Shown: positions 20,223-39,019 of the stretch, piece after piece
Layout: each line of letters starts with the position of its first letter
Position numbering within the stretch: position 1 is the stretch's first letter
Assembly (NCBI RefSeq): GCF_013377295.1
Contig: NZ_CP016180.1
Coordinates: 1,860,001-1,924,000, forward strand
From: Pasteurella skyensis
Lineage (GTDB): Bacteria > Pseudomonadota > Gammaproteobacteria > Enterobacterales > Pasteurellaceae
Direction of reading: 5' to 3'
Length of the DNA: 64,000 bases
Translations under genes and position numbers: made by a program
Notes under the pieces: model-generated
What the model was told of the DNA's origin: nothing
Database searches by the model: none
Seen by the model: only the letters and a program-made list of their open reading frames with translations

Positions 20223-20241
20223 TTTATAATTCCTTTGTTTT

Positions 20242-22395: not shown

Positions 22396-22444
22396 ATTTT
22401 CTCCACTTAATTAAATTAAAAAGCCCTGTAAACACAGGGCTATC

Positions 22445-22678
22445 TTATTTTTTATATGCTTCAGCTTCAGCGGCTGCTTGCCCATCTAGCAAAGCATTTA
22501 ACTTAAGTAAGTCAAGCAATGAACAAGTACCGTTTTTTACTTCTGCAAGAGTCGTCACTTTTGCAATTATTGGTCGCCATATCAACATCTCATCTAAGAG
22601 TTCTTGTCGATAAGTTCCGACAGACTGCCCTTGCTCAAGCCGTCCCACCCAGAACGGTTGAGCAAACGCACTAAAGGG
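22445..22678 (-). CDS. Tail assembly chaperone, -1 frameshift extension (gpGT-type)
   Basis: The -1 frame from the slip site gives 75 further residues, beginning AGT GCG TTT and containing QPFWVGRLEQGQSVGTYRQELLDE, the usual PFW-GRL phrase of the downstream frame in tail-chaperone pairs. A free start exists only at GTG/ATG codons after the overlap, so it is probably made as a 198-residue fusion with the upstream frame. The fusion bridges tube subunits and the tape measure. Confidence 0.8.
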   Translation of the reverse strand, partial: PFSAFAQPFWVGRLEQGQSVGTYRQELLDEMLIWRPIIAKVTTLAEVKNGTCSLLDLLKLNALLDGQAAAEAEAYKK

Positions 22679-23040
22679 TCTTTAAAGTTCTCAATAGCAA
22701 CTTCAACAATTAACTCTAAAATGCCAGTGAAGTCCTCAAAAGCCTCATCAAAATTTGCTTTTTTAAGTACCACATTATCATCATTTGCATCATCAAATGT
22801 GACTAAGCCATTACACAATAATCGAGATGACCAATGCTCTAAACTCGCTCCATCTAATGCAGTTGATAACGCTGTTATAGCGCTTTTAATATCGACCTGA
22901 CTGTCAGTAGTCATAACACCACTTAACGCAGGCAATATTTCTTTCTGCAAATCACCAAACGTTTTTAAAGCATCAAAAGCATTCATTCTTTGAATATAAA
23001 AAGACTTTTCGCCTATCTTAACTTCTTTAATTTTTGCCAT
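22594..23040 (-). CDS. Tail assembly chaperone (gpG-type)
   Basis: 148 residues, short frame of the tail chaperone pair. Contains KIGEKSFYIQRMNAFDALKTFGDLQKEILPAL, typical of chaperones of Mu/DUF3277-tube phages. Sits in the fixed position between tube and tape measure. Ends at 22594 in normal decoding; most ribosomes are expected to make this form. Confidence 0.85.
   Translation of the reverse strand: MAKIKEVKIGEKSFYIQRMNAFDALKTFGDLQKEILPALSGVMTTDSQVDIKSAITALSTALDGASLEHWSSRLLCNGLVTFDDANDDNVVLKKANFDEAFEDFTGILELIVEVAIENFKDPLVRLLNRSGWDGLSKGSLSELIDKNS
22672..22678 (-). other. Programmed -1 frameshift site CCCTTTA
   Basis: The heptamer is in the slippery phase C_CCT_TTA of the upstream chaperone frame (codon 122 starts at 22677). 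A slip by one base opens the downstream frame with no stop until 22445. Confidence 0.75.
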
Positions 23041-23465
23041 TAGTTACCCCCTACTGTATAAATTGCATTTGCTGTATGAATTTCCCATTCTCGAGTAGAT
23101 AACTCTTTTCCAAACTCACTGTTTGGTTTTTTAACAATCCACGCCTGAGCGGATGCAAATAATGATTTACCTCGCTTATCAGTAATAGAAATTGGCATAA
23201 TGTAAGAGCCACCAGAGATTTGGTCTCGGTCGTAAGCATCTGACAAAACAGCATTACTTTCAGATGTTTGTTGCAAAGTCAAAGTGACTTTCATTCGCTT
23301 ATCCGTACTCATAGCACGAGCTACTTCACCGTCAGCCCCTGCTTCAGAAGAAACACCATCTGACATTTGCTCAACGTTCACAAAAGTGCCATCTGCGTAA
23401 CCTTTTACTGAGTGAGCGCCAAAAGTAATAATGACCTTACTTGGATCGTATGTTTTTAATCCCAT
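23040..23465 (-). CDS. Tail tube protein (DUF3277)
   Basis: 141 residues, all-beta. The order after the sheath, and phrases KTYDPSKVIITFGAHSVKGYADGTFVNVE and TLTLQQTSESNAVLSDAYDRD, fit the DUF3277 tube family. Forms the inner tube pushed out on contraction. Stop overlaps the chaperone start by one base. Confidence 0.85.
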   Translation of the reverse strand: MGLKTYDPSKVIITFGAHSVKGYADGTFVNVEQMSDGVSSEAGADGEVARAMSTDKRMKVTLTLQQTSESNAVLSDAYDRDQISGGSYIMPISITDKRGKSLFASAQAWIVKKPNSEFGKELSTREWEIHTANAIYTVGGN

Positions 23466-23475
23466 TTTTTACTCC

Positions 23476-24792
23476 TTATAGTTCGTATGCTAACGAGCCT
23501 TTGATTTCAGTTAAGTGGATAGCACCTGCTAAACGTGCAATCCAAGTCATATTTTGTAAGAAACGACTAGCTTTACGGTTAGAACTAATTGATGAAGCAA
23601 GTGGCTTGTTAATGATATAAGACGGAATAACTTTGCCTTCTTCATCTAACTCATCTGGAGCAATTCCACCACGTCTTATACCTAAGTCTAATGACTGTTG
23701 CATTGAGGCAGCTATCATTTCAATCCCTGCATCTGTGTATGGGACTTTTCCATCAGCATTAATAATCGTAAACGCCACATCAGATTGCATTGTCGCCTCT
23801 AACCAATCACGGAAGCGGATAATATCAATCCATTCACCAGCTGCTACTTTTCCTAATTGCGTTAGGGCAAATTGACCGTTAAACATTTCAAATGTATTCA
23901 CATTTTTACCGTGCGCAACAATCGCCTCACCCTCTTTCAGATAGTCTGCGGTAACTCCAGCCAAACGCTTATTTGCCCACGTTGCAGAGCCTGGATAATA
24001 TGTAAATAATTTAGCCATTGCTGCAATATCAGTAAATTCACTATCTGCTTGCGGATCATAATGAACGGCTGTTCGGAAAAATTGTCGATCTTTAAGAATA
24101 GAGCCGATATCATCCGTCTTGCCACCATCTACAATATGTTTGTCGCTAGATGCTGTTACGAATAACTTACCATTAGCCTCAACCCATTCAGCTACTGCAA
24201 TAACATCTGATTTTTCACGAGAAGTGATTGCCACACCATACCAAGAGCCGCCTTCATCTTTAATTGCAGTTAAGCACTCAGCCCAATTTTCTGTGCTTGT
24301 ACTTTCACCAATCGACAGCTTGCCTTTAACTCCAATCTTGCTATCGCACTGAACAGTTATTACACCATCGCTAGCTGTAGCACTTGTAACATTTGAAAGT
24401 GCAGCTAATTTAGTAGCTAATCCTGTAGAAATTGAATTAAGCGTGCTTGATGATGTTGCGTTCTGCGTTACTGATTCATCGCCAACAGTAACTGTATAAT
24501 CACCTGTAACTGCTCTAGTCACTTTGATTTCTGTTTCATTTGCCGCTTGGCGACCAATATAAACTTTGTCAACGTGAGGAATTTGTGAGAATGTAGATGC
24601 CGCTGCTTTATATAATTTAGTGTCAGACGACAATCCTAAATCTAAAAGCTGATCAGCTCCTGTAATTGCCATCATACGAGTGTTAGATAGCGAATGAGGC
24701 GCAACAATAATTATGTCACTAAAACTAGGAACGCTAATTCCTGTTGTGTTCAAACTAATCTGAACACTTACTAAACGGTCTAAATTAGCCAT
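23476..24792 (-). CDS. Tail sheath protein (DUF3383)
   Basis: 438 residues from ATG 24792, chosen because AGGAG lies eight bases upstream; the frame also runs further but without a site. N-terminal LDRLVSVQISLNTTGISVPSFSDIIIV and the central LKDRQFFRTAVHYDPQADSEFTDIAAMAKLFTYYPGSATWANKRLAGV fit DUF3383 sheath proteins. This makes the phage a myovirus. Overlaps the upstream neck gene by 8 nt. Confidence 0.88.
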   Translation of the reverse strand: MANLDRLVSVQISLNTTGISVPSFSDIIIVAPHSLSNTRMMAITGADQLLDLGLSSDTKLYKAAASTFSQIPHVDKVYIGRQAANETEIKVTRAVTGDYTVTVGDESVTQNATSSSTLNSISTGLATKLAALSNVTSATASDGVITVQCDSKIGVKGKLSIGESTSTENWAECLTAIKDEGGSWYGVAITSREKSDVIAVAEWVEANGKLFVTASSDKHIVDGGKTDDIGSILKDRQFFRTAVHYDPQADSEFTDIAAMAKLFTYYPGSATWANKRLAGVTADYLKEGEAIVAHGKNVNTFEMFNGQFALTQLGKVAAGEWIDIIRFRDWLEATMQSDVAFTIINADGKVPYTDAGIEMIAASMQQSLDLGIRRGGIAPDELDEEGKVIPSYIINKPLASSISSNRKASRFLQNMTWIARLAGAIHLTEIKGSLAYEL

Positions 24793-25255
24793 TTTTATAC
24801 TCCTGATTAATTTCCACTTTCTCAATAATATGAAGTGTCTCCATCACACTTGTCACATAATTAAAGTGAATTGTTAAAGTTGATCGGCTTTCCCAATCAA
24901 CGCTGTTGATAGTCTCTGGCATCTGCTGAATGCCACCAAAATTACTTATTGATACGTTTAAAGATTCACAAATAGAAAGAACTTCTTCTGTTTGTAATTG
25001 CTGTACAAATTCATCAAGTATTTGATAGCTGTCATTTCCATAACAATCTATCTGTACAATTGCTTGTCGATGCGACTCAATTAAACGCTCTCCATTTTCG
25101 CCTAATACTTGCTTGTGACTTGGCAAACTTGTATCAGCACTTAAAATGTGAATAGTTATATAAGGCTTAGGAGGGAGTTTAACTCCTGATTGATACGCAA
25201 AAAAAAGAGGCTTGCTTGTCGCTGCCTCTAATACTTTATAAAGTGATTTTTTCAT
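24785..25255 (-). CDS. Neck / tail terminator protein
   Basis: 156 residues. Phrase PPKPYITIHILSADTSLPSHKQ and a beta-alpha layout match the tail terminator (gpU-like, LIC_12616-type) found before the sheath gene in this phage type. Forms the ring closing the tail top. Assignment from position and pattern. Confidence 0.6.
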   Translation of the reverse strand: MKKSLYKVLEAATSKPLFFAYQSGVKLPPKPYITIHILSADTSLPSHKQVLGENGERLIESHRQAIVQIDCYGNDSYQILDEFVQQLQTEEVLSICESLNVSISNFGGIQQMPETINSVDWESRSTLTIHFNYVTSVMETLHIIEKVEINQEYKNG

Positions 25256-25602
25256 ATCTTAACCGCCAAATAACGATAATGTGGAATAATGCCTGACTGC
25301 CAACTAGATTTATCACGAATTAAAAATTCACAATCATCATATATCAGCACATCACCATCAGCAGAGTTAGAACCATCATTTCCTGCTTGCTTTAAATTCT
25401 CTCTGGTGTAAATGCGGATCGCTCGCTCAACAACTGCACCATCACTACGCAACTCCATAGCATCGTAATCGCTTTGCGTTGCAGGCTGAACGCTTGCCAT
25501 TACCTCAATTTTTTCTTCAGAAGCGATATCTTGCCAAACGCCATCAACAAAAGAGCCGTTCTTTTTAGCCTTTTTAACTACATACTTTTTTCTAAAAGTC
25601 AT
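25252..25602 (-). CDS. Head closure / stopper-type protein
   Basis: 116 residues, beta-rich, with VQPATQSDYDAMELRSDGAVVERAIRIYTRE (about 37-67), a phrase seen in small connector proteins of Mu/DUF3383 myoviruses. Overlaps both neighbours by 4 nt. Likely head-tail connector. Confidence 0.55.
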   Translation of the reverse strand: MTFRKKYVVKKAKKNGSFVDGVWQDIASEEKIEVMASVQPATQSDYDAMELRSDGAVVERAIRIYTRENLKQAGNDGSNSADGDVLIYDDCEFLIRDKSSWQSGIIPHYRYLAVKI

Positions 25603-26024
25603 AACTTACTCCAGTTAATAGAACGATACATTTTTCTTGTGTCGATTAAAGGTCTACCGTGTCCTTTCTTACGTATTGTTGCAGGTGCGTTTTCAACAAA
25701 ATTTCCTTCTGAAATCTCATTTTTCACATACCTAACATATGTTCGCCCAATGTTTTCTGTAATAGAGTTAATGTCTAAACTTTCATTTTGAAGTTGTTTT
25801 AACATTTTTCTCTGATACTTTGTTAATTTATCTTTAGATGTTCCTAAGGTTTGTCGCATAAAGGGACGAGGAGGCGCTTTTGATGTGCCAAATTCATTAA
25901 AAATAGCAACTTGAGCAACACTAATACCACTGCTGTACTCGCCAGACTCTGGAAGAATACCAACCTTTATCTTAACTTTAGACAAATTCCGCATTTGTCG
26001 CTCTATCTGCTTCAACTTATTCAT
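25599..26024 (-). CDS. HK97 gp10-like connector protein
   Basis: 141 residues. VKIKVGILPESGEY, FNEFGTSKAPPRPFMRQTL (about 45-63) and a C-terminal APATIRKKGHGRPLIDTRKMYRSI match the HK97 gp10-like / Mu-type tail completion family. Connector between head and tail. Confidence 0.75.
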   Translation of the reverse strand: MNKLKQIERQMRNLSKVKIKVGILPESGEYSSGISVAQVAIFNEFGTSKAPPRPFMRQTLGTSKDKLTKYQRKMLKQLQNESLDINSITENIGRTYVRYVKNEISEGNFVENAPATIRKKGHGRPLIDTRKMYRSINWSKL

Positions 26025-26029
26025 TTCGT

Positions 26030-26392
26030 TTAGCTCCGTGACATAGGCACCATTGTGATGGTTTGTTTAGCTGAATCAATGATATTCTGATAAGCAGCTA
26101 AATATCCATAAAGATCGATTCCTACGCCATTGTCGCCATAACTTCTAGATAAGTCCCCCTCTTCTTCTCTTGTAACGCCAATAGGAATACTATCTATTGA
26201 TTGCGTTCGCTTCTGATTAGTTAGAAGATACCCAGCATAATAAACTTGCGCTTCTCTTTTTTCGTCTTCCGACAAATTGACTTTCACTTTTTTAACAGCG
26301 AAAGTAAGAGCTTGCTCCTTTTTATCAGTTTCGACACTAGATACTGCTGGGCATAATAAATCAAGCAATTCTATTAAACTGAGATTATCCAT
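26030..26392 (-). CDS. Head-tail adaptor (DUF4054)
   Basis: 120 residues, helical. Closing phrase SYGDNGVGIDLYGYLAAYQNIIDSA (about 84-108) and size suit DUF4054 adaptors, the gp6-like ring below the portal. Followed upstream by an intra-operon hairpin CCACCCC/GGGGTGG (about 26420-26455) without T tract. Confidence 0.65.
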   Translation of the reverse strand: MDNLSLIELLDLLCPAVSSVETDKKEQALTFAVKKVKVNLSEDEKREAQVYYAGYLLTNQKRTQSIDSIPIGVTREEEGDLSRSYGDNGVGIDLYGYLAAYQNIIDSAKQTITMVPMSRS

Positions 26393-26483
26393 TTAACCCC
26401 TCTTTAAGCTACATTTAATAACACCACCCCTTAGCGCCAAGTCTTTTGGGGTGGCAATTAATCAACTAACACAACAAAAATAA

Positions 26484-26816
26484 CTAGTCGTTAGATCCGT
26501 CATTGTTGTTCTCCGCATTTTCTAGCAAAGCAATTAACTCATCTTTTTTAGCATCAGAGCCATATGCAATACCTTTTTCACCTAAGAGAGCTTTCAGTTC
26601 TGCAACTTTCATTTTGCTAAAAACATTGGTTTCAGAATTATTGATGACGACCGCTTCAATGCCAAGATTTTTATAAGCCTCAACTATTAAAGGATAATCA
26701 CCATAAATCGTGACTTTTTTCGCATTTTTTCTAGCTTCCTCAAAGTGAGAGGCACTGCGATAGTGCCCATCTAAACCATCAATCTTGCGACCATTACTTG
26801 AATAAATTAAATGCAT
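26484..26816 (-). CDS. Head protein with C-terminal HeH/SAP-like motif
   Basis: 110 residues. N-terminal part reads MHLIYSSNGRKIDGLDGHYR. The C-terminal helix-extended-helix (MKVAELKALLGEKGIAYGSDAKKDELIALL, in parts, about 68-98) is the HeH/SAP or Rho-N-like fold that binds nucleic acid. It sits right after the major capsid gene, a usual place for head fibre or DNA-stabilising accessory proteins. Role inferred. Confidence 0.6.
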   Translation of the reverse strand: MHLIYSSNGRKIDGLDGHYRSASHFEEARKNAKKVTIYGDYPLIVEAYKNLGIEAVVINNSETNVFSKMKVAELKALLGEKGIAYGSDAKKDELIALLENAENNNDGSND

Positions 26817-26825
26817 TCATTCCTC

Positions 26826-27767
26826 CTAAGTTAATGTGATAATTACACCAGCAGTGTTCTTATTGCTTGATGCATATTTCTTCCAAGATGCAGTTGCTCC
26901 TAATGTTTCTATATCAGGGTTAGAACCTGCTTCTTTGTCATTGTAAGAGTACCCAAGAACATCAATGTTGAATGTCCCCTCAGCACGAACACCAATAGAT
27001 AAGTTTGTTCTGTCGTTGATGTTGTATGCAGCAACTTCTGGCAGTTGAGAATTGGTGATTTTCACTGCACCAGGCTGTAAGCCATAGATTGTTCTTTGTT
27101 TTGCTTGGTCGGTAACTAAAACAGGAACGTTTAAAGTACCTGGCATTCCGCCATAGATGACCACACCTGCCTCTTCATAGATTTTTTCAGCAATAGCTTG
27201 ATCAATAAAATCAAACCACGTTTCACTATCCATTAACCACAAACCTACTCGGTTAAATTTATCACCAAAAGCACGAAAGCCTTTAGTCATCACTTTTTTA
27301 CCATCTACACTGATTGAACCGCTAGTTTGCATTTGGCTATTAGACCCGATTGCACCATCTAATGAGGCTGTAGCGTAGTTAAAGTACCCTTCTATTAAAG
27401 CGTCAGCATAATCACGACCAACTACCTGAGAAAACTCTTCAGGGCTGCGTCCGCGACGCTTCATCGCTTCTTTGGTCATTTCGTATGGACCATACATAAA
27501 AGGCACTTTAACCCCTACCTTTTCGCCCATATCAATCTTGTTGCCTTCTGCTGCTGCATTAGAGTTGACGTCACGATGTTTGATTGAACCACCAATTTTG
27601 TAAAAAGCATCGTGAGAAAAATCGCCTAGAATATTTTTATCTTCGAGGACTAACGCGCCATTACTTGCTTTGTTGAAAGTTGCAAGATTATCTTGCATTT
27701 GCTCAAGATATCCAGTTTGAACATCTTGGTTATAGATGATTACATCACTATTTACTGTTGTTGCCAT
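26826..27767 (-). CDS. Major capsid protein
   Basis: 313 residues, HK97-fold type by position and content: between scaffold and connector genes, with phrases GPYEMTKEAMKRRGRSPEEFS, VGLWLMDSETWFDFIDQAI and VPVLVTDQAKQRTIYGLQPGA. AAGGAG ribosome site. No protease gene lies nearby, so the shell probably assembles on the separate scaffold. Confidence 0.85.
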   Translation of the reverse strand: MATTVNSDVIIYNQDVQTGYLEQMQDNLATFNKASNGALVLEDKNILGDFSHDAFYKIGGSIKHRDVNSNAAAEGNKIDMGEKVGVKVPFMYGPYEMTKEAMKRRGRSPEEFSQVVGRDYADALIEGYFNYATASLDGAIGSNSQMQTSGSISVDGKKVMTKGFRAFGDKFNRVGLWLMDSETWFDFIDQAIAEKIYEEAGVVIYGGMPGTLNVPVLVTDQAKQRTIYGLQPGAVKITNSQLPEVAAYNINDRTNLSIGVRAEGTFNIDVLGYSYNDKEAGSNPDIETLGATASWKKYASSNKNTAGVIITLT

Positions 27768-27782
27768 TTATAGCTCCTTAAA

Positions 27783-28556
27783 TTATTTATCAAGTTTTAG
27801 AAAAGCTGCGTGTCCGTTTTCTTCAACAAACTTATGCTTTTCTTCTGCACTCATTTTTGAACGTTTTAAATTCGTTTGGCTTCCACCATTACCACTAACA
27901 GAAGGGTTAGCACCTGCACCGCTCATTCCAGAGCTTTTTAAAATACTGTCTTTGTTTGGATAGCTATCAACTAAAATAGCCAGTGACTCTTCAAAGTCGG
28001 CTAAGCTACCTGCTGTTTCAGGCTTGCGTGAATACAGTTCATTACCTTGACCATCTGTTGCAACCACTTTGCCATCTTTAATTTGAAAATGACGACCAAA
28101 GAATGCTTGTGCTACATCAGTAGGAATTGCTAGGTTTTCTGCAATAAACTTACTTCTAGCAAACGAACCGCCAATCTTCTCATCATAAAGTTGTTGTTTA
28201 AGTTTTTCTGCTTCTGCATTCGCTTCGTCAAGTTGTGTTTGATATGTTTTAGCCATTTCAGCCTTAACTTTTTCAACCTCACCTGAATCAATTAATTTTT
28301 TGGCATCTAAATCACCTAACTTCTGCAGCGCTTCTTTTGCCTTTTCAGGGTCTGTAATCCCTTCAAACGCTTTGAGTTGTTTTTCTAACGCATCTTTTGC
28401 CTCACGATGTCCTTTTGCTTCACCATTCAACTGAGCAATTTTTGCTGAGGCTCGAAACGCATCGAAAGCAATCTCGCTTCCATCTTCTTTTAAATAAACT
28501 GGCTTTCCGTCTTCTAATACTACGTTGCCGTTTTCGTCTAATTTTAATTTCCACAT
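27783..28556 (-). CDS. Scaffolding protein (DUF6651-like)
   Basis: 257 residues with N-terminal beta hairpin (KLKLDENGNVVLEDGKPVYLKEDGSE), a long central coiled coil (about 45-125), a short folded piece (FAENLAIPTDVAQAFFGRHF-like, about 130-160) and a charged C-terminus. This is the usual plan of phage scaffold proteins upstream of the capsid gene. Confidence 0.8.
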   Translation of the reverse strand: MWKLKLDENGNVVLEDGKPVYLKEDGSEIAFDAFRASAKIAQLNGEAKGHREAKDALEKQLKAFEGITDPEKAKEALQKLGDLDAKKLIDSGEVEKVKAEMAKTYQTQLDEANAEAEKLKQQLYDEKIGGSFARSKFIAENLAIPTDVAQAFFGRHFQIKDGKVVATDGQGNELYSRKPETAGSLADFEESLAILVDSYPNKDSILKSSGMSGAGANPSVSGNGGSQTNLKRSKMSAEEKHKFVEENGHAAFLKLDK

Positions 28557-28612
28557 ACTTTAGTTTCCTTTTGGTTTTTCCAAACATTCGCCTAAAACCT
28601 TCTGATTTCAGA

Positions 28613-28653
28613 CATAAAAAAACCGCTTACATATCTCTATGTAAACGGTCGGT
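28613..28653 (-). terminator. Terminator after the toxin-immunity cassette
   Basis: Minus strand ACCGTTTACAT-AGAGAT-ATGTAAGCGGT plus T tract, between the immunity-like gene and the scaffold. It contains a USS core. Confidence 0.88.
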
Positions 28654-28674
28654 TAATTTTAAATTGTTTAAATT

Positions 28675-28932
28675 CTAATGATTGATTTCTGCTAGATATT
28701 CTCTAACTAGCTGTCTAAATTCATCTTCGTTAATTTCATAATCATCACCTGGATAATAATCATCGCACGCTGTTCTGATTTTGGCAGCAGTTTCCCACGT
28801 ATCTTTGTCATTTTGACCAAGCCCTCTATCATCGCTATCCCACATATCAAGGTACTTATCAGAAAAATCAAATGCAGATACTTTGCCTTTATCAAAATCA
28901 ATCGCAAATTGTATTAATGGTGTTACTACCAT
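28675..28932 (-). CDS. Colicin-D-type immunity protein
   Basis: 85 residues, very acidic, helical. The pattern F-G-K-V-S-A-F-D-F-x-x-x-Y-L-D-M-W (about 13-31) followed by a CDDYYPGDDYEINEDEFR segment (about 55-72) is that of bacterial colicin-like immunity (ImmD) proteins; ImmD itself is 87 residues. Starts 7 nt inside the MuF-toxin gene, so translation is coupled, and is followed by a terminator. Presumed to bind and block the tRNase-like domain of its neighbour. Confidence 0.75.
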   Translation of the reverse strand: MVVTPLIQFAIDFDKGKVSAFDFSDKYLDMWDSDDRGLGQNDKDTWETAAKIRTACDDYYPGDDYEINEDEFRQLVREYLAEINH

Positions 28933-30263
28933 ATAAAATCCTCTTTAAGATATTTGGTATATTGTGTTTCTCCCTCTACTAACTGCAACACAGTTAGAAA
29001 ACTATTATCTTTACCAAAAACAACAACTACCTTTGTTTTTGGATCATACCAAACTTTGTTATTGCTGTTTTTATACACTCCTTTCTGAATTATATTAGGA
29101 CTATTCATAAAATCAACGATTTTATTCTGAAACTCTTTTTGTGTTACTGAATTATTTCTTGTTGTATCAATTCCCAAATGTTTTGCGTGTTTATTAAACT
29201 TGCGCTTTAATTGACTACTTTGAAACCTTGCTCCTTTTAATGCTTTAGTATCAACAACAGGCTCTATAAAATGCGGATTAAATTTACGCTTTAATTCTGT
29301 TAGTGTCAAAGGTCGCCCTGTCTGATCTAACATATCACTAAAAGTAATGACGTTTCTACGCCATAAATCAGCTTTTCCTTTGCCTAAAATCTCATCTTGT
29401 TGAGATTTGGTTTTACCTTCTAGCCAATCCTCATACGTTATTCTTTTAGAGTTACCATTTAACAATTTGCATTTAAATATTAAACGCAATCTAGAGCGAC
29501 AACGAGGATGAAGAGGAGGACGAGCATAAGGCACTGAATGTCCTATTGGTTTCTTATCCAAGTCCCAACGTTTACCATCTCTCACCTGACAAGATGTTGA
29601 TGTTCTGCCATCTAATACAGACACGTGTTCTTCACCAAGAAATATTTTCTTACCAACTTCTTTTAGTGCGTAATGAGCTGCATCAGACACCTTGCCAACA
29701 GATGTGACTATCAATGTTTCTGCGTTTCTAAGCTGTGACTTAGCTAATGATTTGAAATCACTGATGATGCTTTCAATATCACTGTTGTTAAAAGCTCCTT
29801 GTCTTAGTGTCCCTTGAAATCTACGAAAATAATCATTGCTTTGTTTGACCCACCAATCGCCTATTGCAACACCACTTATTAAGAGAGCCTCATCTAACGA
29901 ATTTAACTTATCATCGCTCATTGGCTTTAATAAGTCATCATCAATGTAATTATTGTAAACTTCTACAAGATTATTGTGTTCAACACGCAAGAACTCTAAA
30001 AGCTCTGTTTCTTGCTCTATTCTAATTTCTTGATATTTATCATTAATTAATTTTTTAACTTCATTTATAAACTTGTTTAGCTCCCTTTTTCGCAGATTTT
30101 TAACATCAGCGAGCAACAATCTTTTAATGATATTGTCTTGGAGAATGTTTAAATTTTTACGAGCCATTTTTCTAAGATGAGCATCATATCTGAAGTGGAG
30201 AATTTGATGGTCAACAAGATCTTCAATTATCTTCTGCTCGATTGTTCTCTTCTGTGAAGCCAT
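28926..30263 (-). CDS. MuF-type head morphogenesis protein with C-terminal colicin D-like toxin domain
   Basis: 445 residues from ATG 30263 (GAGGG site; a GTG precedes it). Residues about 1-190 are helical; 195-265 hold the MuF minor-head motif (VLDGRTSTSC ... HPRCRS). From about 348 the sequence changes: KRKFNKHAKHLGI, FMNSPNIIQKGVYKN, WYDPKTKVVVVFGKD, SFLTVLQL. This order (K-F-KHA-x-x-x-G, Y-x-x-x-x-Y-DP-T, D-x-x-F-S/T) follows the colicin D anticodon nuclease domain. The catalytic KH is present (358-359); the later Ser and Trp of colicin D read Thr and Leu. MuF proteins enter the capsid, so the toxin could be packaged and injected. Confidence 0.75.
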   Translation of the reverse strand: MASQKRTIEQKIIEDLVDHQILHFRYDAHLRKMARKNLNILQDNIIKRLLLADVKNLRKRELNKFINEVKKLINDKYQEIRIEQETELLEFLRVEHNNLVEVYNNYIDDDLLKPMSDDKLNSLDEALLISGVAIGDWWVKQSNDYFRRFQGTLRQGAFNNSDIESIISDFKSLAKSQLRNAETLIVTSVGKVSDAAHYALKEVGKKIFLGEEHVSVLDGRTSTSCQVRDGKRWDLDKKPIGHSVPYARPPLHPRCRSRLRLIFKCKLLNGNSKRITYEDWLEGKTKSQQDEILGKGKADLWRRNVITFSDMLDQTGRPLTLTELKRKFNPHFIEPVVDTKALKGARFQSSQLKRKFNKHAKHLGIDTTRNNSVTQKEFQNKIVDFMNSPNIIQKGVYKNSNNKVWYDPKTKVVVVFGKDNSFLTVLQLVEGETQYTKYLKEDFIW

Positions 30264-31617
30264 CACTTAAACCCTCGCTATTCAGCCTTTCTTGCTCATC
30301 TTCCCAAGTTCTTTCTTCACTAATCAAGCCACGTCTTTTGGCTTCTTCAAAAGTCGTGCGTGTTGAAAGTGAACCGCTTGTTTGTAACTTAATTACAGTA
30401 TCCATTGAAGCGTTTGGATCTAAATCATCATCAATATTACCCGTTATTTCTACAGCGTTATCTTGCGGAATATTGAGCCACATTGAGACAAAATCTAATG
30501 CTTGGTCTAAACTATCTTCTAAAGTGTTAGCCATTGCTTTTAACTGACTAATTTCCTTTCCTTGCTCGTCTTTAGCTTGACTATCTGTCATTGCTAAAGC
30601 TGTTTTAGTCAGTAACTTAGCACCTGCAACTTTCATCTGCTCTTCAAGCTCTTTTAGACTTCCTTGTCCTGATGAAATCGCTGCACCAGAATGCTCTATG
30701 TAACCAATTTTTCCATTTTCAGGAAGTAGTATTAGACTTTTCCCAATCTCGACATCGTCAGAAACAGTAACACCTGAAGCCCACAACAGTGGAACTCTAG
30801 CAGTATTTAATATATTGTCTTGATCTGATTGTGATTGCCAGTGCTTGATGTTTAAATAAGCTAATTCCATCAATGGTGGCTCTGCATTCATAAAACCTTT
30901 TTTATTAGTAATCAAAGGAACTATAGGAATTGCATTTAATGACTTGCCGCTTGCTTTTGGCGTTATTTCGTCAACTAATTTATATTCACCATCAACATCT
31001 TCGTATTTTCTAACTCTTCCAATTTCATAAACAACAATCAGTTCTTTTGTTTCTGATGAAAACTCATCACTATCAACAGTTGAGATTTCTTTGTATCTAA
31101 ACTGAGAAAGCGATAGAACGCCGTTTATAACCGCTGTTTTGAAGCCAAGTACATTGTGAGGTGGAATATGTACGAGATAAGGTCTAACCCCATTTTTCTT
31201 TTCGTCCGAGCGTGTTTTAACGTTGTCATTAACAGGATAATCAACCAACACAAAGCTAATGCCATAAGATAGTGCTGATTTAAACCATTCCATTGCAAAT
31301 ACATTCAGATCATTGCCTAACAAATCAATATTCGGCAATATCTCGCTTTTTATTTTTTCTTGTACGTTTTCAGTAGAAATAGGATCGAAAAATACTCGTC
31401 CTGTCATTTGTTTAATAGTCTCAGCTAATGTTGGATATAATGTTGCTTTCTGTAATCGTTTTTTATAATCATCATCTTCTTCGCGCTTAAATTTCGGCAA
31501 ATGTGTTTCGCCTTTCGCTCGCATTGTTCGAGTTCCGCCGAGCAAATCATCTATAATCTGAATTTGTTCGTGCAACAACGTTATTTCTTTTGTCTTTTTT
31601 GCAACTGATGAAGTCAT
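30223..31617 (-). CDS. Portal protein (DUF4055-like)
   Basis: 464 residues. N-terminal RMRAKGETHLPKF region, then LYPTLAETIKQMTGRVFFDPI (about 56-76) and a C-terminal SMWLNIPQDNAVEITGNIDDDLDP (about 383-406) match DUF4055 portals. Sits between terminase and MuF genes. Forms the dodecameric vertex through which DNA is packed. Its end overlaps the MuF gene by about 40 nt, more than elsewhere in the operon. Confidence 0.85.
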   Translation of the reverse strand: MTSSVAKKTKEITLLHEQIQIIDDLLGGTRTMRAKGETHLPKFKREEDDDYKKRLQKATLYPTLAETIKQMTGRVFFDPISTENVQEKIKSEILPNIDLLGNDLNVFAMEWFKSALSYGISFVLVDYPVNDNVKTRSDEKKNGVRPYLVHIPPHNVLGFKTAVINGVLSLSQFRYKEISTVDSDEFSSETKELIVVYEIGRVRKYEDVDGEYKLVDEITPKASGKSLNAIPIVPLITNKKGFMNAEPPLMELAYLNIKHWQSQSDQDNILNTARVPLLWASGVTVSDDVEIGKSLILLPENGKIGYIEHSGAAISSGQGSLKELEEQMKVAGAKLLTKTALAMTDSQAKDEQGKEISQLKAMANTLEDSLDQALDFVSMWLNIPQDNAVEITGNIDDDLDPNASMDTVIKLQTSGSLSTRTTFEEAKRRGLISEERTWEDEQERLNSEGLSDGFTEENNRAEDN

Positions 31618-31631
31618 TTTTATTCCTCATT

Positions 31632-32867
31632 TTAAATTGGAGACTCAACTTGTGTTAATCCTCCTTTTCTCTTAATTAAAGGATTTAGAGCGTAACGAAG
31701 AGCATCTATATAGTGATTATGCTTATCAATTATTATCGGTAGCACATCACCAGTTAAACGGTCTGTCTTATAACTGTATAAACGAAATTCTTTTAATGTC
31801 TCTACACAACGTGGGTGTATATAAACTTTGTTATATGACTTGATATGTTCAATACCATCTTCAACGCTACCTTTCCATTTTTTAGCACCTATAATTCTCG
31901 CTAATCCTTTGCGTTTTAAATGACTAATGCTTTCAGGACGTGCCGAATCAGCTCGAATGATATGCCTTTCAATATCAGGTATTCTATCTACTAGATATTT
32001 AGGCGTATCGTCCAGCTCTAAGCCCACTTTTCCGCCCTCGTATTCAATATAAAGATTATTATTAAACACCCAACACTTAATACCAGCCGTTGGATCTTGA
32101 GAAAACCCAAAGTCAAGACCGTGGTAAGGTCCAGCAAAATCTTCTTTTGCTGTGAACTCTAATTCTTGGTACTTGCCATTGAATATTTGAGCATCCGAAT
32201 GCTCTCTATAAGCACCTTCCCAAATCCATCTGTATGTAGCATCGTCTAAACGTTTCTTATCAGACAATCGCTCTTGTTCTAACACATCAGGGAACCAAGG
32301 GTTATCTGTGTAATTCATTTCAACGATTAGAGCGTCATCAGGAGGATTAACTCTAAATCTATTATCAGTAGCAGACTCTCTTTGCTCAGGATTCCACGTT
32401 ACCCAAATTTCAGAATTGTTTTCACGAACTGTCGGAATTAATTTAGACCAAGCCACCTCGCTTACTGACTCAGCTTCATCAACCCAAGCAAGTAGTATTT
32501 TAGCTTTAGACTTAATACTGTCTAAATTATGACGTAATCCTGCAAACACATAACGAACAGAACCACACTTTGTTTTGATGTATTTATCGCCAATTTCAAA
32601 AAAGTTATTTAAAAAAGGCTCTGACCTTATCGCTTCTTTAACCTCTTCTAATGAACTTTCCTCTAGTGAATTCATAAACTCACGACCGCAGAGAATTACA
32701 CCACTATCGCCACTTTGTACTCTCATATAAGCATAAACAGCGGTCATTTTTGCGAACGATCTTGTTTTAGCAGAACCTCGTCCGCCATAAGCCCCTTTAT
32801 ATCTGCTTGGCGTGGCAAATACAGGTATTAATTTTGGTGGAAGTCTAATAAGTGTTTCATCATTCAT
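31632..32867 (-). CDS. Terminase large subunit (PBSX type)
   Basis: 411 residues from ATG 32867 (GAGGA site, 8-nt overlap with the small subunit). Walker A GGRGSAKTRS near residue 27-36, Walker B ILLAWVDEAE near 127, and nuclease acidic residues in HGLDFGFSQDPTAG and DSARPES, then DALRYAL at the end. ATP-driven motor and headful/cos nuclease of the Terminase_3 family. Confidence 0.93.
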   Translation of the reverse strand: MNDETLIRLPPKLIPVFATPSRYKGAYGGRGSAKTRSFAKMTAVYAYMRVQSGDSGVILCGREFMNSLEESSLEEVKEAIRSEPFLNNFFEIGDKYIKTKCGSVRYVFAGLRHNLDSIKSKAKILLAWVDEAESVSEVAWSKLIPTVRENNSEIWVTWNPEQRESATDNRFRVNPPDDALIVEMNYTDNPWFPDVLEQERLSDKKRLDDATYRWIWEGAYREHSDAQIFNGKYQELEFTAKEDFAGPYHGLDFGFSQDPTAGIKCWVFNNNLYIEYEGGKVGLELDDTPKYLVDRIPDIERHIIRADSARPESISHLKRKGLARIIGAKKWKGSVEDGIEHIKSYNKVYIHPRCVETLKEFRLYSYKTDRLTGDVLPIIIDKHNHYIDALRYALNPLIKRKGGLTQVESPI

Positions 32868-33231
32868 TCTTTTCCTCAAAATCAGGAGCAACTAATTTAA
32901 TAACTGTTGGATTACGTATTGAATTATCGCTAGAAGTGTGATCGATAACTTGACTTTCTTTCCAGCCTGCTTGTGTTTTTAAATAAAATATTGCAGCAGT
33001 AGTATTGCCATCTTGTGCTTGTCTTATTAAATTATGAGCCACACTTGCAATAGCCTTATTTTTCCCTTTTTTATAATGTTCAAAAACTTCTGGCTGTCTT
33101 TCGCAAATCGCAGTAAAAGTGTTTCTAGCTATACCGAAGTAATCTGCTATTTGCTCTAAAGTTAAAACACTAGCAAGAGCTTCTACTTGTGCTATTTGCT
33201 TTTCATCTAATTTTTTTTTAGGTCTTGCCAT
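32860..33231 (-). CDS. Terminase small subunit
   Basis: 123 residues. N-terminal helix-turn-helix (EQIADYFGIARNTFTAICERQPEVFEHY, in parts, about 26-53) followed by an oligomerisation helix and a variable C-terminus. Recognises the packaging site and loads the large subunit, whose gene overlaps by 8 nt. Confidence 0.85.
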   Translation of the reverse strand: MARPKKKLDEKQIAQVEALASVLTLEQIADYFGIARNTFTAICERQPEVFEHYKKGKNKAIASVAHNLIRQAQDGNTTAAIFYLKTQAGWKESQVIDHTSSDNSIRNPTVIKLVAPDFEEKNE

Positions 33232-33234
33232 AAC

Positions 33235-33435
33235 TTATACTCCAGTTACATCTAATTCGCTCTCAATGTCTGCGTAAAAAGAACCATCATTATTGTGCCA
33301 GTGAGTAACTGGAGGCTCTTCTGCATTTTCACCTGTTTCTGCCAATAACCACTTTCCAAATTTACTTTGAAAAATAACTTGAGCATACTTACCATTACGT
33401 AGTTTTACTGTTTTTCCAATTTCTAAATCAATCAT
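33235..33435 (-). CDS. Hypothetical phage protein (66 aa)
   Basis: 66 residues from ATG 33435, fixed by AAGGAG seven bases upstream. Content: MIDLEIGKTVKLRNGKYAQV, KWLLAETGE, VTHWHNNDGS; beta-rich, small, without cysteines. Sits between the spanins and the terminase. Not recognised. Confidence 0.6.
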   Translation of the reverse strand: MIDLEIGKTVKLRNGKYAQVIFQSKFGKWLLAETGENAEEPPVTHWHNNDGSFYADIESELDVTGV

Positions 33436-33710
33436 TCTGATTCTCCTTGCCACTCTTTAATTAAATTAATCTGTTTAGCACAGATGTCACGCTCTTCAAT
33501 CACTGTGATTAAAAACCTAATAACATCACCATAAGTCTTGCCATTAAACACTGTTTGCTTACACTCAACTAGATAAGCAATCGGTACTCTTACTTTCTCT
33601 ACTTTAGTTACTACTGATTGACTGCAACTGCTTAGAAATATCGCTAGGCAAAAAGGTATTAGCACACTTTTCATTTTGAAGAGTTTGCTTAATATTTTTT
33701 TTTGTTTCAT
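33432..33710 (-). CDS. Outer-membrane spanin lipoprotein (Rz1-like)
   Basis: 92 residues. Signal peptide with lipobox FLSSC (Cys near residue 29) and a soluble remainder of about 60 residues, longer than lambda Rz1. Reading frame is nested out of frame in the end of the Rz-like gene, the standard Rz/Rz1 arrangement. Start could also be the internal Met at 33674. The nine-A run near 33695-33703 lies in both frames. Helps fuse inner and outer membranes at lysis. Confidence 0.75.
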   Translation of the reverse strand: MKQKKILSKLFKMKSVLIPFCLAIFLSSCSQSVVTKVEKVRVPIAYLVECKQTVFNGKTYGDVIRFLITVIEERDICAKQINLIKEWQGESE

Positions 33711-33951
33711 TTGCTTTTTCTCTTAACGATGTAACAGCTTGTTGATAGCTAGTAACAGCATCTCTTTCTAGTTTTAAGTTTCTAACTAACTCTTGATTTG
33801 CTTCTTCTTGCTTAATGATAAGCTGGGATTGAGCTTGGACTTTGGCACTTAATTTCAAATTCATCTGATATTGAACCCATAACCCACTACACAATCCCAA
33901 AACTAGCACTGCGATTACTGCCCTGATTGTGAACTGTATCCTGCTAAACAT
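33604..33951 (-). CDS. Inner-membrane spanin (Rz-like)
   Basis: 115 residues from ATG 33951. N-terminal membrane anchor (about 9-30, IRAVIAVLVLGLCSGLWV) followed by a periplasmic coiled coil with many Gln and Lys. Overlaps the end of the endolysin gene by 37 nt and contains the start of the Rz1-like frame. Together they form the spanin complex. Confidence 0.82.
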   Translation of the reverse strand: MFSRIQFTIRAVIAVLVLGLCSGLWVQYQMNLKLSAKVQAQSQLIIKQEEANQELVRNLKLERDAVTSYQQAVTSLREKANETKKNIKQTLQNEKCANTFLPSDISKQLQSISSN

Positions 33952-34460
33952 AGTTGTTTCTCTTTCTCTCGACGAATAACCAAGCCATTTAATACTCGAC
34001 CATTGCTGTACTTCCATTTCGTAAACTCATTGCACATAGCTTTGATTTTTCCAGCTCGAGCATACTTAAATAGAGTAGATTTCTTCATCGTGCCACAACC
34101 AACATTAAACGTGATTGATGTCGCAGCTTCAAAAGCACCCTGCGGTAAATTATCACCATTAGCAAATCTATTTACACACTCTTCGGCTTTGTGAATGTCT
34201 TTTACCCATCTGTCCGCTATCTCTTCGTGTGTGTAAACTTTACGTTTAATTAAATCTCCGCCGGCTTCTGTTGAACCAATCCCAACAGTAAGCACTCCCG
34301 CAGGACATTTATAAGGGTATTTTCTACAACCCTCTGCTTGTCCTATAATTTCAAGACCTTGCTGTGTAGTTCGGATCTCATCCGGATATTTAGATACAAG
34401 TATCCCAATAACGGCAAGAACACTACACCCCGCAGCTAACTTATGGCTTCTCATCTTCAT
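33915..34460 (-). CDS. Endolysin, SAR-type glycoside hydrolase 24 lysozyme
   Basis: 181 residues. Weakly hydrophobic N-terminal signal-anchor (about 8-23, Ala/Gly rich) followed by a T4-type lysozyme with catalytic Glu43, Cys52 and Thr58 in the E-8-C-5-T spacing of R21-like enzymes (EGCRKYPYKC...VLTVG). Four or more cysteines suggest activation by disulfide exchange after release from the membrane. ATG 34460 with GGAGA site, within the end of the holin gene. Confidence 0.9.
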   Translation of the reverse strand: MKMRSHKLAAGCSVLAVIGILVSKYPDEIRTTQQGLEIIGQAEGCRKYPYKCPAGVLTVGIGSTEAGGDLIKRKVYTHEEIADRWVKDIHKAEECVNRFANGDNLPQGAFEAATSITFNVGCGTMKKSTLFKYARAGKIKAMCNEFTKWKYSNGRVLNGLVIRREKEKQLCLAGYSSQSGQ

Positions 34461-34677
34461 TAATCAGTCTCCCGTGTTTGTCTCTTACTCCCGTTCTTAT
34501 TTCTTCAAGATATAACATTCTTTTTTTATATCTTGATTCTCTAAAATATCCAGCAACGGTTATAATCATCCCAATTAAAACCGCCCATTCGCCGAGAGTA
34601 AAATATCCAAATATGGCAGTAGCCCAAGCAGACAATTGAGATGTGATTGGAATATCTTTCACTACGTTTTTATACAT
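34441..34677 (-). CDS. Holin (pinholin-like)
   Basis: 78 residues with two hydrophobic segments (about 16-30 and 32-45) and a charged C-terminus. First gene of the lysis cassette; overlaps the SAR endolysin gene by 20 nt. SAR endolysins are typically paired with pinholins, which depolarise the membrane. Confidence 0.78.
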   Translation of the reverse strand: MYKNVVKDIPITSQLSAWATAIFGYFTLGEWAVLIGMIITVAGYFRESRYKKRMLYLEEIRTGVRDKHGRLINEDEKP

Positions 34678-34691
34678 CCCATAATCTCTCC

Positions 34692-34816
34692 ATAAAAAAA
34701 GCCCACTTAAAAAGTGAGCCCATAAATTTTAGATACAAAAAAACCTCAAATGTATCGCTACATTCGAGGTTATAAAATTCTTTAACTTTTCTTTAAGATG
34801 TGTTTTCGACATCTTA
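34692..34816 (-). terminator. Three stacked hairpins upstream of the lysis genes (tR'-like)
   Basis: On the leftward strand in order: AAGATG/CATCTT (34794-34816), AACCTCGAATGTA/TACATTTGAGGTT plus T7 (34736-34771), GGCTCACTTTTTAAGTGGGC plus T7 (34692-34721). They separate the Q-like gene from holin, the classic place for Q-dependent readthrough into late genes. Confidence 0.85.
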
Positions 34817-34859
34817 TGGGATAAATATACCTTACTGGGCTACCCATTGTCAAATTTTT

Positions 34860-35198
34860 TTATGATAAAAAACCGTGAATAAACATCTCAGCACCTCTAA
34901 ACACAGTATGAACATACCCTTTAGAGCGTTTAATATCCTTAGAAATTTTATTCAAGGAGATATTATTTATGTAATAAGTTTTAATCACTTCATAACCTAG
35001 TTCATCAAATTGTTTCAGCTTGCACACGGCTTTTTCCACTTCGAGTATTTCTTTTTCGGTACCCGTTACACTAGAGGGTATGCACATATCCGAAGTATTC
35101 AAAAAAGCGGATAAACTGGGATATCCAGTGTGTATCTCTACTTCTCTGGACCATCTTCCCCAATTAATCAATCTGGCTTTCAATTCATCTTTTTTCAT
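34860..35198 (-). CDS. Antitermination protein Q-like
   Basis: 112 residues. N-terminal LINWGRWSREVEIHTGYPS and C-terminal helix-turn-helix LGYEVIKTYYINNISLNKISKDIKRSKGYVH (about 67-97) fit the phage_antitermQ family, which binds DNA and loads onto RNA polymerase paused near the late promoter. Position directly before stacked terminators and the holin supports control of the whole 26-kb late operon. Confidence 0.82.
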   Translation of the reverse strand: MKKDELKARLINWGRWSREVEIHTGYPSLSAFLNTSDMCIPSSVTGTEKEILEVEKAVCKLKQFDELGYEVIKTYYINNISLNKISKDIKRSKGYVHTVFRGAEMFIHGFLS

Positions 35199-35216
35199 TT
35201 TTTATCCTTATGACAG

Positions 35217-35552
35217 GGAGACACCTACGTGTCTCCTCATTAAACCCAGTATTTGCAATGCTTTTATGAAATTTTGCGACGGCGACACCTTCATTAAAAA
35301 CTTTCTATATAAATAGAAAAATATAAAAATACATAAATACTCATTTATTTAACTAATCTATATTTTTATAAATCTTTTTTTAGTGTCTCCTGTCTCCTTT
35401 AGTACTAAAATACATATAACATATTGATTTTATTAAAGTTAACAAGGCGACACTTGTTTTTACTTGGTGTCTCCTCGCACCATATAACTTGTTGATTTTT
35501 ATATAAATTAATGGCGACACGAGATTTATGGTTGTTACAGGTTGCTGTCGCC
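35217..35552. repeat. Cluster of GG(A/C)GACAC repeats, candidate replication origin
   Basis: Nine copies in 336 bp. GGAGACACC at 35217; its complement GTGTCTCC at 35229, 35383, 35391 (TGTCTCC) and 35466; GGCGACAC at 35281, 35446 and 35513; complement CTGTCGCC at 35545, inside the primase C-terminus. A very AT-rich stretch (35290-35380) lies between. The gap holds no gene. Iteron-like sites beside a replication primase suggest an origin. Confidence 0.65.
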
Positions 35553-37931
35553 TTCTAATAAGTGTTCCGCTTTTTCTATATGTAAACGATAAATATCATT
35601 TTCTACATTTTTAAGCTCATCACACAAAACCCAAGGACGAAGCATTTTACCCTTATACTTTAAACGTCTTTGGTCGCCCACGTGGTGCTGTAATAACTTC
35701 ACTAACTGTGATTCATCAATAAACAAATCATCATTAGAATTATTTAAAAAGTCTGTGATTTGCTTAAGAGTCATCACACCAACAGGAGGCTTTTCTAAGA
35801 AATCTAAAAAAGCGACTTCGATATCAGAGCGATTGAACTCAATCATATTGCGACGTGCCGGGGTATCAAAGGAATGTGTCCAACGATAGTCTGATAAATC
35901 GAGTGTAATTAAGTAAGAATACACCTCGTCAATAAATGTACTATCTTCCAGTAAGTTATATAAATTATCATAATAGTCCTTTGATTTAGCTTTATCGGGT
36001 CCATCAAAGGCATTGATACGCCTGTCTTCTTCTCGAAGCACTAACGCATCCCTGTGATTTGTCATAAAAAAGAAATTTGTATAAACAGGAATGGTTTTCT
36101 TTGCACCGTATTTTATATTTACTTCCAAATCTTTCTCCGTCAGTGTATCTCGTACTTTATCGCTAATCGCAAAGCGATCGTTACGCTCTTTTACTTCTTC
36201 AACACAACATAAAATAGAGCGATACATAAAACCGTTGAATTGGCCATCGACCAAATCACCCATTTTGCATTTCGTACAATTCCATTTACCCAATACTATT
36301 TGTAATAACTCGACAACCCAACCACGCCCCGTTCCGTGGGGAACTGAAACCAACATATTAGTGACTTTATTGCGGCGTTCAGGATGTTGTCTAAGAGATG
36401 CCATCCATTGTAAGAAATGTTTACGTTCATCTGCGTTAGGGATTAAATACTCAATATGCTCTAAAAAGAAATGCAATTTATCTTTAGAACTTACTTTATT
36501 CAATTTTGGAAAATGGAATGTATTGAAATATCTTGCACCGCCTTGTTCTTCAATAAACATATCTTGGCCAGGAAGATAAACAGTACTAATAACCGATTGG
36601 CGTTTATGGTTTGAAAGCCACTCTTTCCAGACTGGAACAGGCTCTAACTTATTCTTGCTTACCGCTTTCATAATTGTTATATTAGCAGTATAGTTTTTGA
36701 ACTCAGAAAGCTTAGGCATATATGAATGGTGCGGATGCTCTAAATCAAGTACACGGTCATTTTCTGCGACATAAACATAACGCCGAACGAACTCCGCCAC
36801 CCAATCATTGGCGGGGTTTTCTGTATCTGCCGGGATTTCGTCAAACATATCATCATAGAAACCTATTGCATCTAAAAAATCATTATCAGAACGACTAGCA
36901 CAATGCGCGTGTTGGCATTTGAAATGCCCCATTTCAAAACCACCCGTTTCCGCAGGAAAGTAAGCTGTAGAGGTTTCATTACCGCTATCGCTAGAATGCT
37001 CACTCTCAAACGGACAACGAATAAAACGCTCACCGCGATTGCCAATACCGAATACTTCGCAGTTATTGTCTAAGAACTCGGCGACTTCATCAGAAGATAA
37101 GCTATCGCCTTGAGACAAATCACGGTTTTTAGAAAGTGATTGTGAAGATTCATCAACGACATCAAGAATCAAGGGTAGCGTTTCCCAGAAGTTATTGAAT
37201 TCGTTTAATGAAATGGTAGGAATATTCGTTGGTAATCCTCCCTCCCATTCATATCGCACACCACTTGGATGCGTACCTACGGCAACAAATTGCTGACCTT
37301 TTGCTAAGAACTCAATCATACCGCCATCAGCTAATCGCATAATACGTTTCGGTAATTGCTCATCTTCAATCGCAAACATAAATAAGCACTTATTAGAGTT
37401 TGAACGAAAACGCTTTGGCGGGATAATGCCAAAATAAGATTGTAAAGTATTTGCTACATTTTCAACATCTTTTAGGTTTTCACTATCGACATCTAATGCA
37501 ACGAGGTATCTTTGTGTACTTTTGTCAAATAGTGGATTATTTGAACTATTACCATAATATGTGAGTGGCTGTTCACATATTATGGTAGGATCGTTTTTTA
37601 AACTTGTTTCGTTTGTTTTTTCATCACTTACGCGAATATGTTTATTTATACAGTATTCATTGCCTAAACGAATACAAATCCCTAAGCGATGATCTGTTTT
37701 CCACCCTTTGATATCTGAATCTGTAATAGTTCTATTCGTCCAATTAGTAAGTCCCACCATAAAACCATTGTTATTAATAGTAGAAGGTAATTTTCCCTTT
37801 GAAGTAATTCTGCTTCTAGGAGATATTTTTATATTTGGATCAGAAACGACAGGTAATAAATCTTGACCTAAACCGAGATCGACAAAATGCTGCCATTCTT
37901 CAGATGATGCCCCATAAATTTTATCAGCCAT
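35535..37931 (-). CDS. Replicative primase / SF3 helicase (Prim-Pol plus VapE/D5-like)
   Basis: 798 residues. N-terminal primase-polymerase pattern (YLVALDVDSENL near 142; MIEFLAKGQQFVAVGTHPSG near 207-226; RYEW), a zinc-binding piece (IRCPFESEH ... FKCQHAHC, about 310-347), then an SF3/DUF5906 helicase with P-loop VPHGTGRGW near 540 and Walker B ILCCVEEV, and FFFMTNHRDAL. The P-loop Lys is Arg here, which is unusual. First gene after Cro on the leftward operon. Confidence 0.85.
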   Translation of the reverse strand: MADKIYGASSEEWQHFVDLGLGQDLLPVVSDPNIKISPRSRITSKGKLPSTINNNGFMVGLTNWTNRTITDSDIKGWKTDHRLGICIRLGNEYCINKHIRVSDEKTNETSLKNDPTIICEQPLTYYGNSSNNPLFDKSTQRYLVALDVDSENLKDVENVANTLQSYFGIIPPKRFRSNSNKCLFMFAIEDEQLPKRIMRLADGGMIEFLAKGQQFVAVGTHPSGVRYEWEGGLPTNIPTISLNEFNNFWETLPLILDVVDESSQSLSKNRDLSQGDSLSSDEVAEFLDNNCEVFGIGNRGERFIRCPFESEHSSDSGNETSTAYFPAETGGFEMGHFKCQHAHCASRSDNDFLDAIGFYDDMFDEIPADTENPANDWVAEFVRRYVYVAENDRVLDLEHPHHSYMPKLSEFKNYTANITIMKAVSKNKLEPVPVWKEWLSNHKRQSVISTVYLPGQDMFIEEQGGARYFNTFHFPKLNKVSSKDKLHFFLEHIEYLIPNADERKHFLQWMASLRQHPERRNKVTNMLVSVPHGTGRGWVVELLQIVLGKWNCTKCKMGDLVDGQFNGFMYRSILCCVEEVKERNDRFAISDKVRDTLTEKDLEVNIKYGAKKTIPVYTNFFFMTNHRDALVLREEDRRINAFDGPDKAKSKDYYDNLYNLLEDSTFIDEVYSYLITLDLSDYRWTHSFDTPARRNMIEFNRSDIEVAFLDFLEKPPVGVMTLKQITDFLNNSNDDLFIDESQLVKLLQHHVGDQRRLKYKGKMLRPWVLCDELKNVENDIYRLHIEKAEHLLEGDSNL

Positions 37932-37941
37932 AGATTAATCC

Positions 37942-38163
37942 TTATTTACTATTACGAAGTACAGACCAATCAATATCAGGACGAAGCTCTTCACATCGCA
38001 CTTGACCCTTTGTTAATTTTTCGATTTCAGGGCAATACTCAGCTGGGACTTGTCTAGTATTGCTTACCCAAAATGATAAATTAGAAGATTTAACATTTAA
38101 TGCTTTAGCGAAACCCGCTAAACTTCCTCTTCCTTTATTGTTTAAATAATCTTTTAAAGTCAT
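37942..38163 (-). CDS. cro: Cro/YdaS-type repressor
   Basis: 73 residues with helix-turn-helix (SLAGFAKALNVKSSNLSFWVSNTRQVP, in parts, about 14-40) and the typical ending RCEELRPDIDW of YdaS/Cro-like proteins. Divergent from CI, first on the leftward operon with primase and Q. Expected to turn down CI on induction. Confidence 0.85.
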   Translation of the reverse strand: MTLKDYLNNKGRGSLAGFAKALNVKSSNLSFWVSNTRQVPAEYCPEIEKLTKGQVRCEELRPDIDWSVLRNSK

Positions 38164-38183
38164 AAAAATACCTATTTAATTGT

Positions 38184-38262: not shown

Positions 38263-38292
38263 ATAAAATGCTTAATGTAGAGGAGAAAAGGT

Positions 38293-38967: not shown

Positions 38968-39019
38968 AAAAAGTGATACATCGTACCGCTTAATGTAATT
39001 TAGAAAAGAAGGAAAATAT

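Follow-up and report, generated by a model that had tools for sequence, protein, structure and literature searches.

A MuF head protein fused to a colicin D-type RNase domain, with an ImmD-type immunity gene, in a prophage of Pasteurella skyensis

A prophage of Pasteurella skyensis carries a gene in which a MuF minor head protein is fused to a C-terminal domain of the colicin D (ColD) type, followed by an overlapping gene for a homolog of the colicin D immunity protein, ImmD. The phage is temperate and myovirus-like, and the fusion is probably one of its virion components, a MuF toxin of the polymorphic kind: a ColD-type tRNase that is packaged and delivered by the virion and neutralized by the ImmD homolog. 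Features found in the window, the stretch of 64,000 nucleotides analyzed here, are listed in table 1. The combination of a ColD toxin domain, MuF delivery and ImmD is already known as a kind, having been listed by Zhang et al. 2012 (PMC3482391); what makes the present find worthwhile is that a single host holds two alleles, that the active site is altered and that cassette exchange can be seen.

Table 1. Features of the prophage and of the toxin region, in positions of the window.
Feature	Position	Strand	Evidence or remark
Whole prophage, 49.4 kb	8123..57592		attL 8123-8153, attR 57562-57592, 94% alike
Scaffold-type and major head protein genes, beyond the terminator	26826..28556	-	PHROG 206 E 5.5e-30; PHROG 247 E 9.6e-59
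Intrinsic terminator of the portal-MuF-immunity transcript	28621..28650	-	Stem of 13 pairs, then TTTTTA
ImmD-type immunity gene, 85 aa	28675-28932	-	PF09204, AlphaFold2 and Foldseek
Block differing between the two prophages (toxin C-terminal half and immunity gene, about 400 bp)	28684..29080	-	65-75% DNA identity, flanks 92-100%
MuF-ColD fusion gene	28926-30266	-	GTG start, 446 codons
C-terminal colicin D-type RNase domain, residues 329-446	28929..29282	-	PF11429, phmmer, AlphaFold2 and Foldseek
MuF minor head part (SPP1 gp7-like), residues 1-328, with conserved junction LGKGKADLW..ITFSDMLDQTGRPLTLTEL	29285..30266	-	PF04233, PHROG 7625/241
Portal gene	30223..31617	-	PHROG 145 E 6e-130; 44-nt overlap with the start of the toxin gene
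Terminase large and small subunits	31632..33231	-	PHROG 3717 E 1.1e-66; PHROG 309 E 9e-26

The prophage is inserted at the 3' end of the ssrA (tmRNA) gene. Genes recognized in it include those for an integrase, a CI-type repressor, a primase, a Q-like antiterminator, an endolysin and a spanin. Terminase, portal, scaffold and major head protein genes were also recognized, as were genes for the sheath, the tape measure, the hub and wedge of the baseplate and the tail fibre. This set of genes indicates a contractile-tailed temperate phage. Judged by its gene content the prophage is myovirus-like and largely complete, and it may be functional. The toxin and immunity genes sit in the packaging module, between the portal and the scaffold-type genes.

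The toxin gene has an alternative ATG start at 30263, one codon after the GTG, which would give 445 aa. About the first 260 residues of the fusion matched PF04233 (E 2e-7, over the cut-off of the Pfam profile) and the head morphogenesis families PHROG 7625/241 (E 1e-66 to 1e-67, best 2.7e-67), in agreement with the MuF domain proposed in a preliminary description of this DNA. The nearest MuF proteins belong to phages or prophages of Pasteurella, Mannheimia, Rodentibacter and Haemophilus, and the junction at the end of the MuF part is kept across MuF proteins of Pasteurellaceae phages. A distinct basic domain had been placed from about residue 348 onwards; the domain is indeed basic (pI 9.8), but the variable cassette starts earlier, near residue 325-330.

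The immunity ATG overlaps the 3' end of the toxin gene by 7 nt and is preceded by an AGAGG Shine-Dalgarno-like site; its product is acidic (pI 4.1), as had been stated. The predicted terminator behind it was also found (28650-28621). Candidates for a promoter specific to the immunity gene did not rise above shuffled sequence, so that constant protection of the lysogen is something we infer.

Residues 343-426 of the fusion matched colicin D (PF11429, Colicin_D, E 8.7e-7, over cut-off). When phmmer was run against solved structures, only colicin D chains appeared below E 1 (1v74, E 7.9e-9). The AlphaFold2 model of the toxin domain (mean pLDDT 83, from a shallow alignment of 4 sequences) gave five Foldseek hits below E 0.001 in the PDB, all of them colicin D, with 5znm, 1tfo, 1v74 and 1tfk among the best; superposition on 1tfo yielded TM 0.78/0.89 and an rmsd of 1.2. 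The next hit was the E. coli O32:H37 CDI toxin 8ey4 (TM 0.52), which was absent from the phmmer hits of the fusion up to E 10. The earlier identification of a colicin D-like nuclease domain is borne out by these matches. A toxin-domain-only scan of viral contigs yielded L011, a spurious match of just 12 residues.

The immunity protein matched PF09204 (Colicin_immun) marginally (E 1.5e-4, 22.7 bits, cut-off 22), and its counterpart in a second prophage gave a clear match (30.3 bits). Its AlphaFold2 model is a four-helix structure (mean pLDDT 82, from a shallow alignment of 3 sequences), for which the first two Foldseek hits were the ImmD chains 1v74_B and 1tfk_B (prob 1.00, TM 0.75-0.78, E 0.02-0.05); nothing else close was found in the PDB. 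That the predicted structures of two neighbouring genes independently land on both partners of the ColD:ImmD complex is the strongest single argument for the assignment. The ImmD-like identity read earlier from the sequence holds as well. With PADLOC the immunity protein also hit a methylase (E 9e-4), which was set aside as a chance similarity, and a scan of viral contigs with the immunity protein alone returned no relatives.

The identity of both genes is further backed by a second, diverged MuF-ColD/ImmD pair in the same chromosome, in a prophage near 1.046 Mb, whose proteins are 65% and 73% identical to those of the window. Outside the packaging module and some short stretches that they have in common, the two prophages differ. 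Sliding identity, codon comparison and base-by-base alignment were used to delimit the diverged block. Identity between the prophages is 93% in the portal, 64% in MuF residues 1-265, 92-95% in the junction and the N-terminal half of the ColD domain, 65% in its C-terminal half and 75% in the immunity gene; the two are identical from the stop codon of the immunity gene to the end of the terminator. In the diverged blocks dS ranges from 1.1 to saturated, and dN/dS is 0.22 for MuF, 0.33 for the toxin C-terminal half and 0.08 for the whole immunity gene (0.03-0.33 in the diverged block). High dS with low dN/dS indicates old alleles that arrived by recombination and have stayed functional, as opposed to fast evolution at the site, and positive selection on the block was rejected on the same values. 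The toxin C-terminal half and the immunity gene diverge together as a single unit, which suggests that the alleles are matched in specificity.

Two further observations concern the pair of prophages. Positions 31503-33603 of the window (terminase and start of portal) are mostly 100% identical between them, against 60-80% beyond, a sign that the co-resident prophages have recently exchanged sequence or undergone gene conversion. At the left attachment site (window 8129-8247), a 120-bp stretch is 90% alike to a sequence at about 1022683 of the chromosome (G000:C1), near the second prophage; an attachment site of the ssrA type may thus have been used, or be carried, by the second phage too.

Relatives were collected with four aligned MuF-ColD proteins as query, run against IMG/VR and against genomes, which recovered MuF relatives only: 34 loci in IMG/VR and 4 in genomes. 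Matches occurred in 13 of 140 Pasteurellaceae genomes, and a scan of genome contigs with a single protein as query returned no relatives. In the relatives compared, the N-terminus is kept and the tail varies after a conserved ITFxDMLDQSGRPLT junction. ColD tails are of two subtypes, A (the window and the second prophage) and B (L029, L031-L033). L015, L020, L038, L055, L056 and others carry a RelA/SpoT-like (alarmone synthetase) tail accompanied by genes for a 72-aa protein and an HD hydrolase, which is the Apk2/IapK/Aph1 set (the RelA_SpoT profile matched weakly, whereas PF13328, for the HD hydrolase, exceeded its cut-off). An ADP-ribosyltransferase tail is found in L064 and L069 (PF01129, E 2e-16) and a PRTase-like tail in L043-L050 (PF00156, E 2e-5, just under cut-off); L036, L037, L039 and L007 have tails of other kinds without a Pfam family as far as scanned (L036, L039), and the MuF protein of Pm86 has almost no tail. 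Since the same slot holds various toxin/immunity modules in its relatives, the fusion of the window belongs among the polymorphic MuF toxins.

Subtype B toxins, all on IMG/VR contigs, share the architecture of the window's fusion and come from related phages, with ColD domains 34-36% identical to it; they differ in lacking the insertion described below and in keeping D614, and the ORF downstream (128-131 aa; L029 6369-6758, L031 6369-6752) has no Pfam match. No relation of this ORF to ImmD was detected (hhalign P 0.1), and the ORF is a candidate for a new immunity family for ColD-type toxins. Several other MuF tails were observed, of 244 aa (L036/L037), 237 aa (L057/L068) and about 122 aa (L039/L007), and in L084, most with a small ORF downstream. 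The L036 and L039 tails had no accepted Pfam match when scanned, and the tails of all these loci possibly represent undescribed toxin/immunity pairs.

CDI loci carry orphan toxin/immunity modules. In L057 (2971-6257) and L070 (2971-7024) a complete Apk2/IapK/Aph1 cassette follows the active toxin and immunity gene, and these orphan cassettes open with the MuF junction sequence in a further copy (ITFRDMLDQSGRPLT), yet have no MuF domain; L070 has a third, partial cassette further downstream. These tandem arrays resemble the CDI orphan modules and suggest a route for cassette exchange.

Immunity-type genes were also found beside broken toxins. Among the 140 Pasteurellaceae genomes, PF09204 matched only in the genome of the window and in a congener (G112), where an intact immunity-type ORF lies beside a ColD remnant with stops and without MuF (L075 1435-1934, G112:C1). 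In another genome (G068), an intact ORF of the type found downstream of subtype B toxins stands beside a frameshifted ColD toxin, again without MuF (L004 1483-2251, G068:C91). The outlasting of toxin by immunity fits protection against incoming toxin, the cases being few (two). Together with the observations above, this makes it possible, though less likely than not, that the co-resident prophages hold ColD/ImmD pairs of different specificity through a swap of the toxin C-terminal half and immunity gene across conserved islands, and that with orphan cassettes stored downstream, as in L057 and L070, MuF toxins may switch by CDI-like cassette recombination, bacterial immunity genes being kept as a defence against incoming virions.

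The MuF protein of SPP1, gp7, is taken into the procapsid in few copies by the portal and helps infection to start (PMC6316719). The position of the fusion gene next to the portal gene, as for gp7, supports packaging by analogy: the MuF part would dock on the portal, and the head would thereby receive the fusion in a few copies. Packaging, injection and protection of lysogens had likewise been put forward as inferences in the preliminary description. The fusion would then enter the infected cell with the DNA, where the ColD-type domain would be released and, as a metal-independent RNase, cut tRNA, most likely tRNA-Arg, so that translation would be slowed or stopped. The ImmD homolog would bind the domain and cover its active site, thereby protecting the producing cell during assembly and also lysogens that express it. 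The cassette itself is swapped among related prophages. Jamet et al. 2017 propose that MuF toxins either bias the choice of lysogeny or act as weapons against competing bacteria or phages (PMC5576092), and the present data do not favour one over the other.

In colicin D, K608, H611, S677 and W679 are given as critical (PMC4964976) and D614 as essential (PMC3482391). K356 and H360 of the fusion align with K608 and H611, which are thus both kept. The preliminary description had noted two late replacements, S677 to Thr (Thr425) and W679 to Leu (Leu427). Both are present, but the first is ordinary for the family: Thr is likewise found in the relatives L014, L025, L029 and L031, which have Phe in place of W679, and Zhang et al. 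2012 give [ST] at this position (PMC3482391). The description had missed an extra Asn in the catalytic helix, between F357 and K359 (before K610 of colicin D), as well as the changes of D614 to His363 and of K607 to Arg. The active site therefore departs from that of colicin D further than had been seen, and activity and target may differ from those of colicin D, as had been proposed. The toxin of the second prophage has all the same departures.

The tRNA-Arg anticodon, which colicin D cuts between positions 38 and 39, is the likeliest target. It is not secured, since the Colicin_D family also includes toxins that cut the acceptor stem, CdiA-CT EC3006 and Kp342 (PMC9990079). With its catalytic neighbourhood changed in both prophage copies, the ColD-fold domain could have shifted to another tRNA or to the acceptor stem. 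We consider this possible though not probable, as the domain is nearer to colicin D than to 8ey4 by both phmmer and TM score. The replacement of several residues important in colicin D would also suit a domain that no longer acts as an RNase and serves the head protein as an extension that binds RNA or has a structural part, and in phage Mu itself the MuF protein has been suggested to contain an inactive BECR domain (PMC5512222). The catalytic His and both flanking Lys are kept, however, and the immunity gene, which would be needless beside an inactive toxin, is under strong purifying selection in both copies, so that loss of activity is very unlikely.

If the pair worked chiefly within the lysogen or against rival phages, as a module for addiction or superinfection exclusion and not as a weapon injected into new hosts, this would account for adjacent and overlapping toxin and immunity genes and for the keeping of immunity in genomes with a broken toxin. 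Against this, the toxin forms one protein with a head component and is encoded in a late operon that a lysogen should not express, and the layout is the same in other MuF toxins (PMC12226406, PMC5576092); we regard such a module as rather unlikely, and a packaged and delivered tRNase with its ImmD-type immunity protein as the preferred reading.

The fusion resembles known MuF polymorphic toxins (PMC5576092, PMC3482391) in its MuF N-terminus, its C-terminal toxin from a shared pool, the small immunity gene directly downstream and its place in the packaging region of a temperate phage. The known toxin domains that Jamet et al. 2017 found lay mainly in phages of Firmicutes, whereas the present one lies in a myovirus-like prophage of Pasteurellaceae, in a genome set apart by two diverged versions in one chromosome. 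MuF toxins of Mannheimia and Pasteurella prophages, of another toxin type, were tested experimentally in 2025 (PMC12226406). The Apk2-type relatives (Pmp13, vB_MhS_1152AP2) are likewise from Pasteurellaceae and have the same slot with a homologous MuF protein and junction sequence, but their C-terminus makes (p)ppApp and is accompanied by two immunity genes, in place of a ColD-type RNase and one ImmD-type gene. Colicin D/ImmD (1v74, 1tfk, 1tfo, 5znm), klebicin D and pyocin SD1-3 share the nuclease fold, the positions of the catalytic His and Lys, and a four-helix acidic immunity protein encoded beside the toxin; the fusion lacks the receptor and translocation domains of these bacteriocins and has MuF in their place.

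What MuF toxins do for their phages is still debated, and nature has supplied here two matched toxin/immunity alleles of a well-studied fold. Because the two diverged alleles reside in one genome, cross-protection and specificity become directly testable. A way for phages to change toxins is suggested by the orphan cassettes in tandem, and the persistence of immunity-type genes beside broken toxins hints that protection is selected for.
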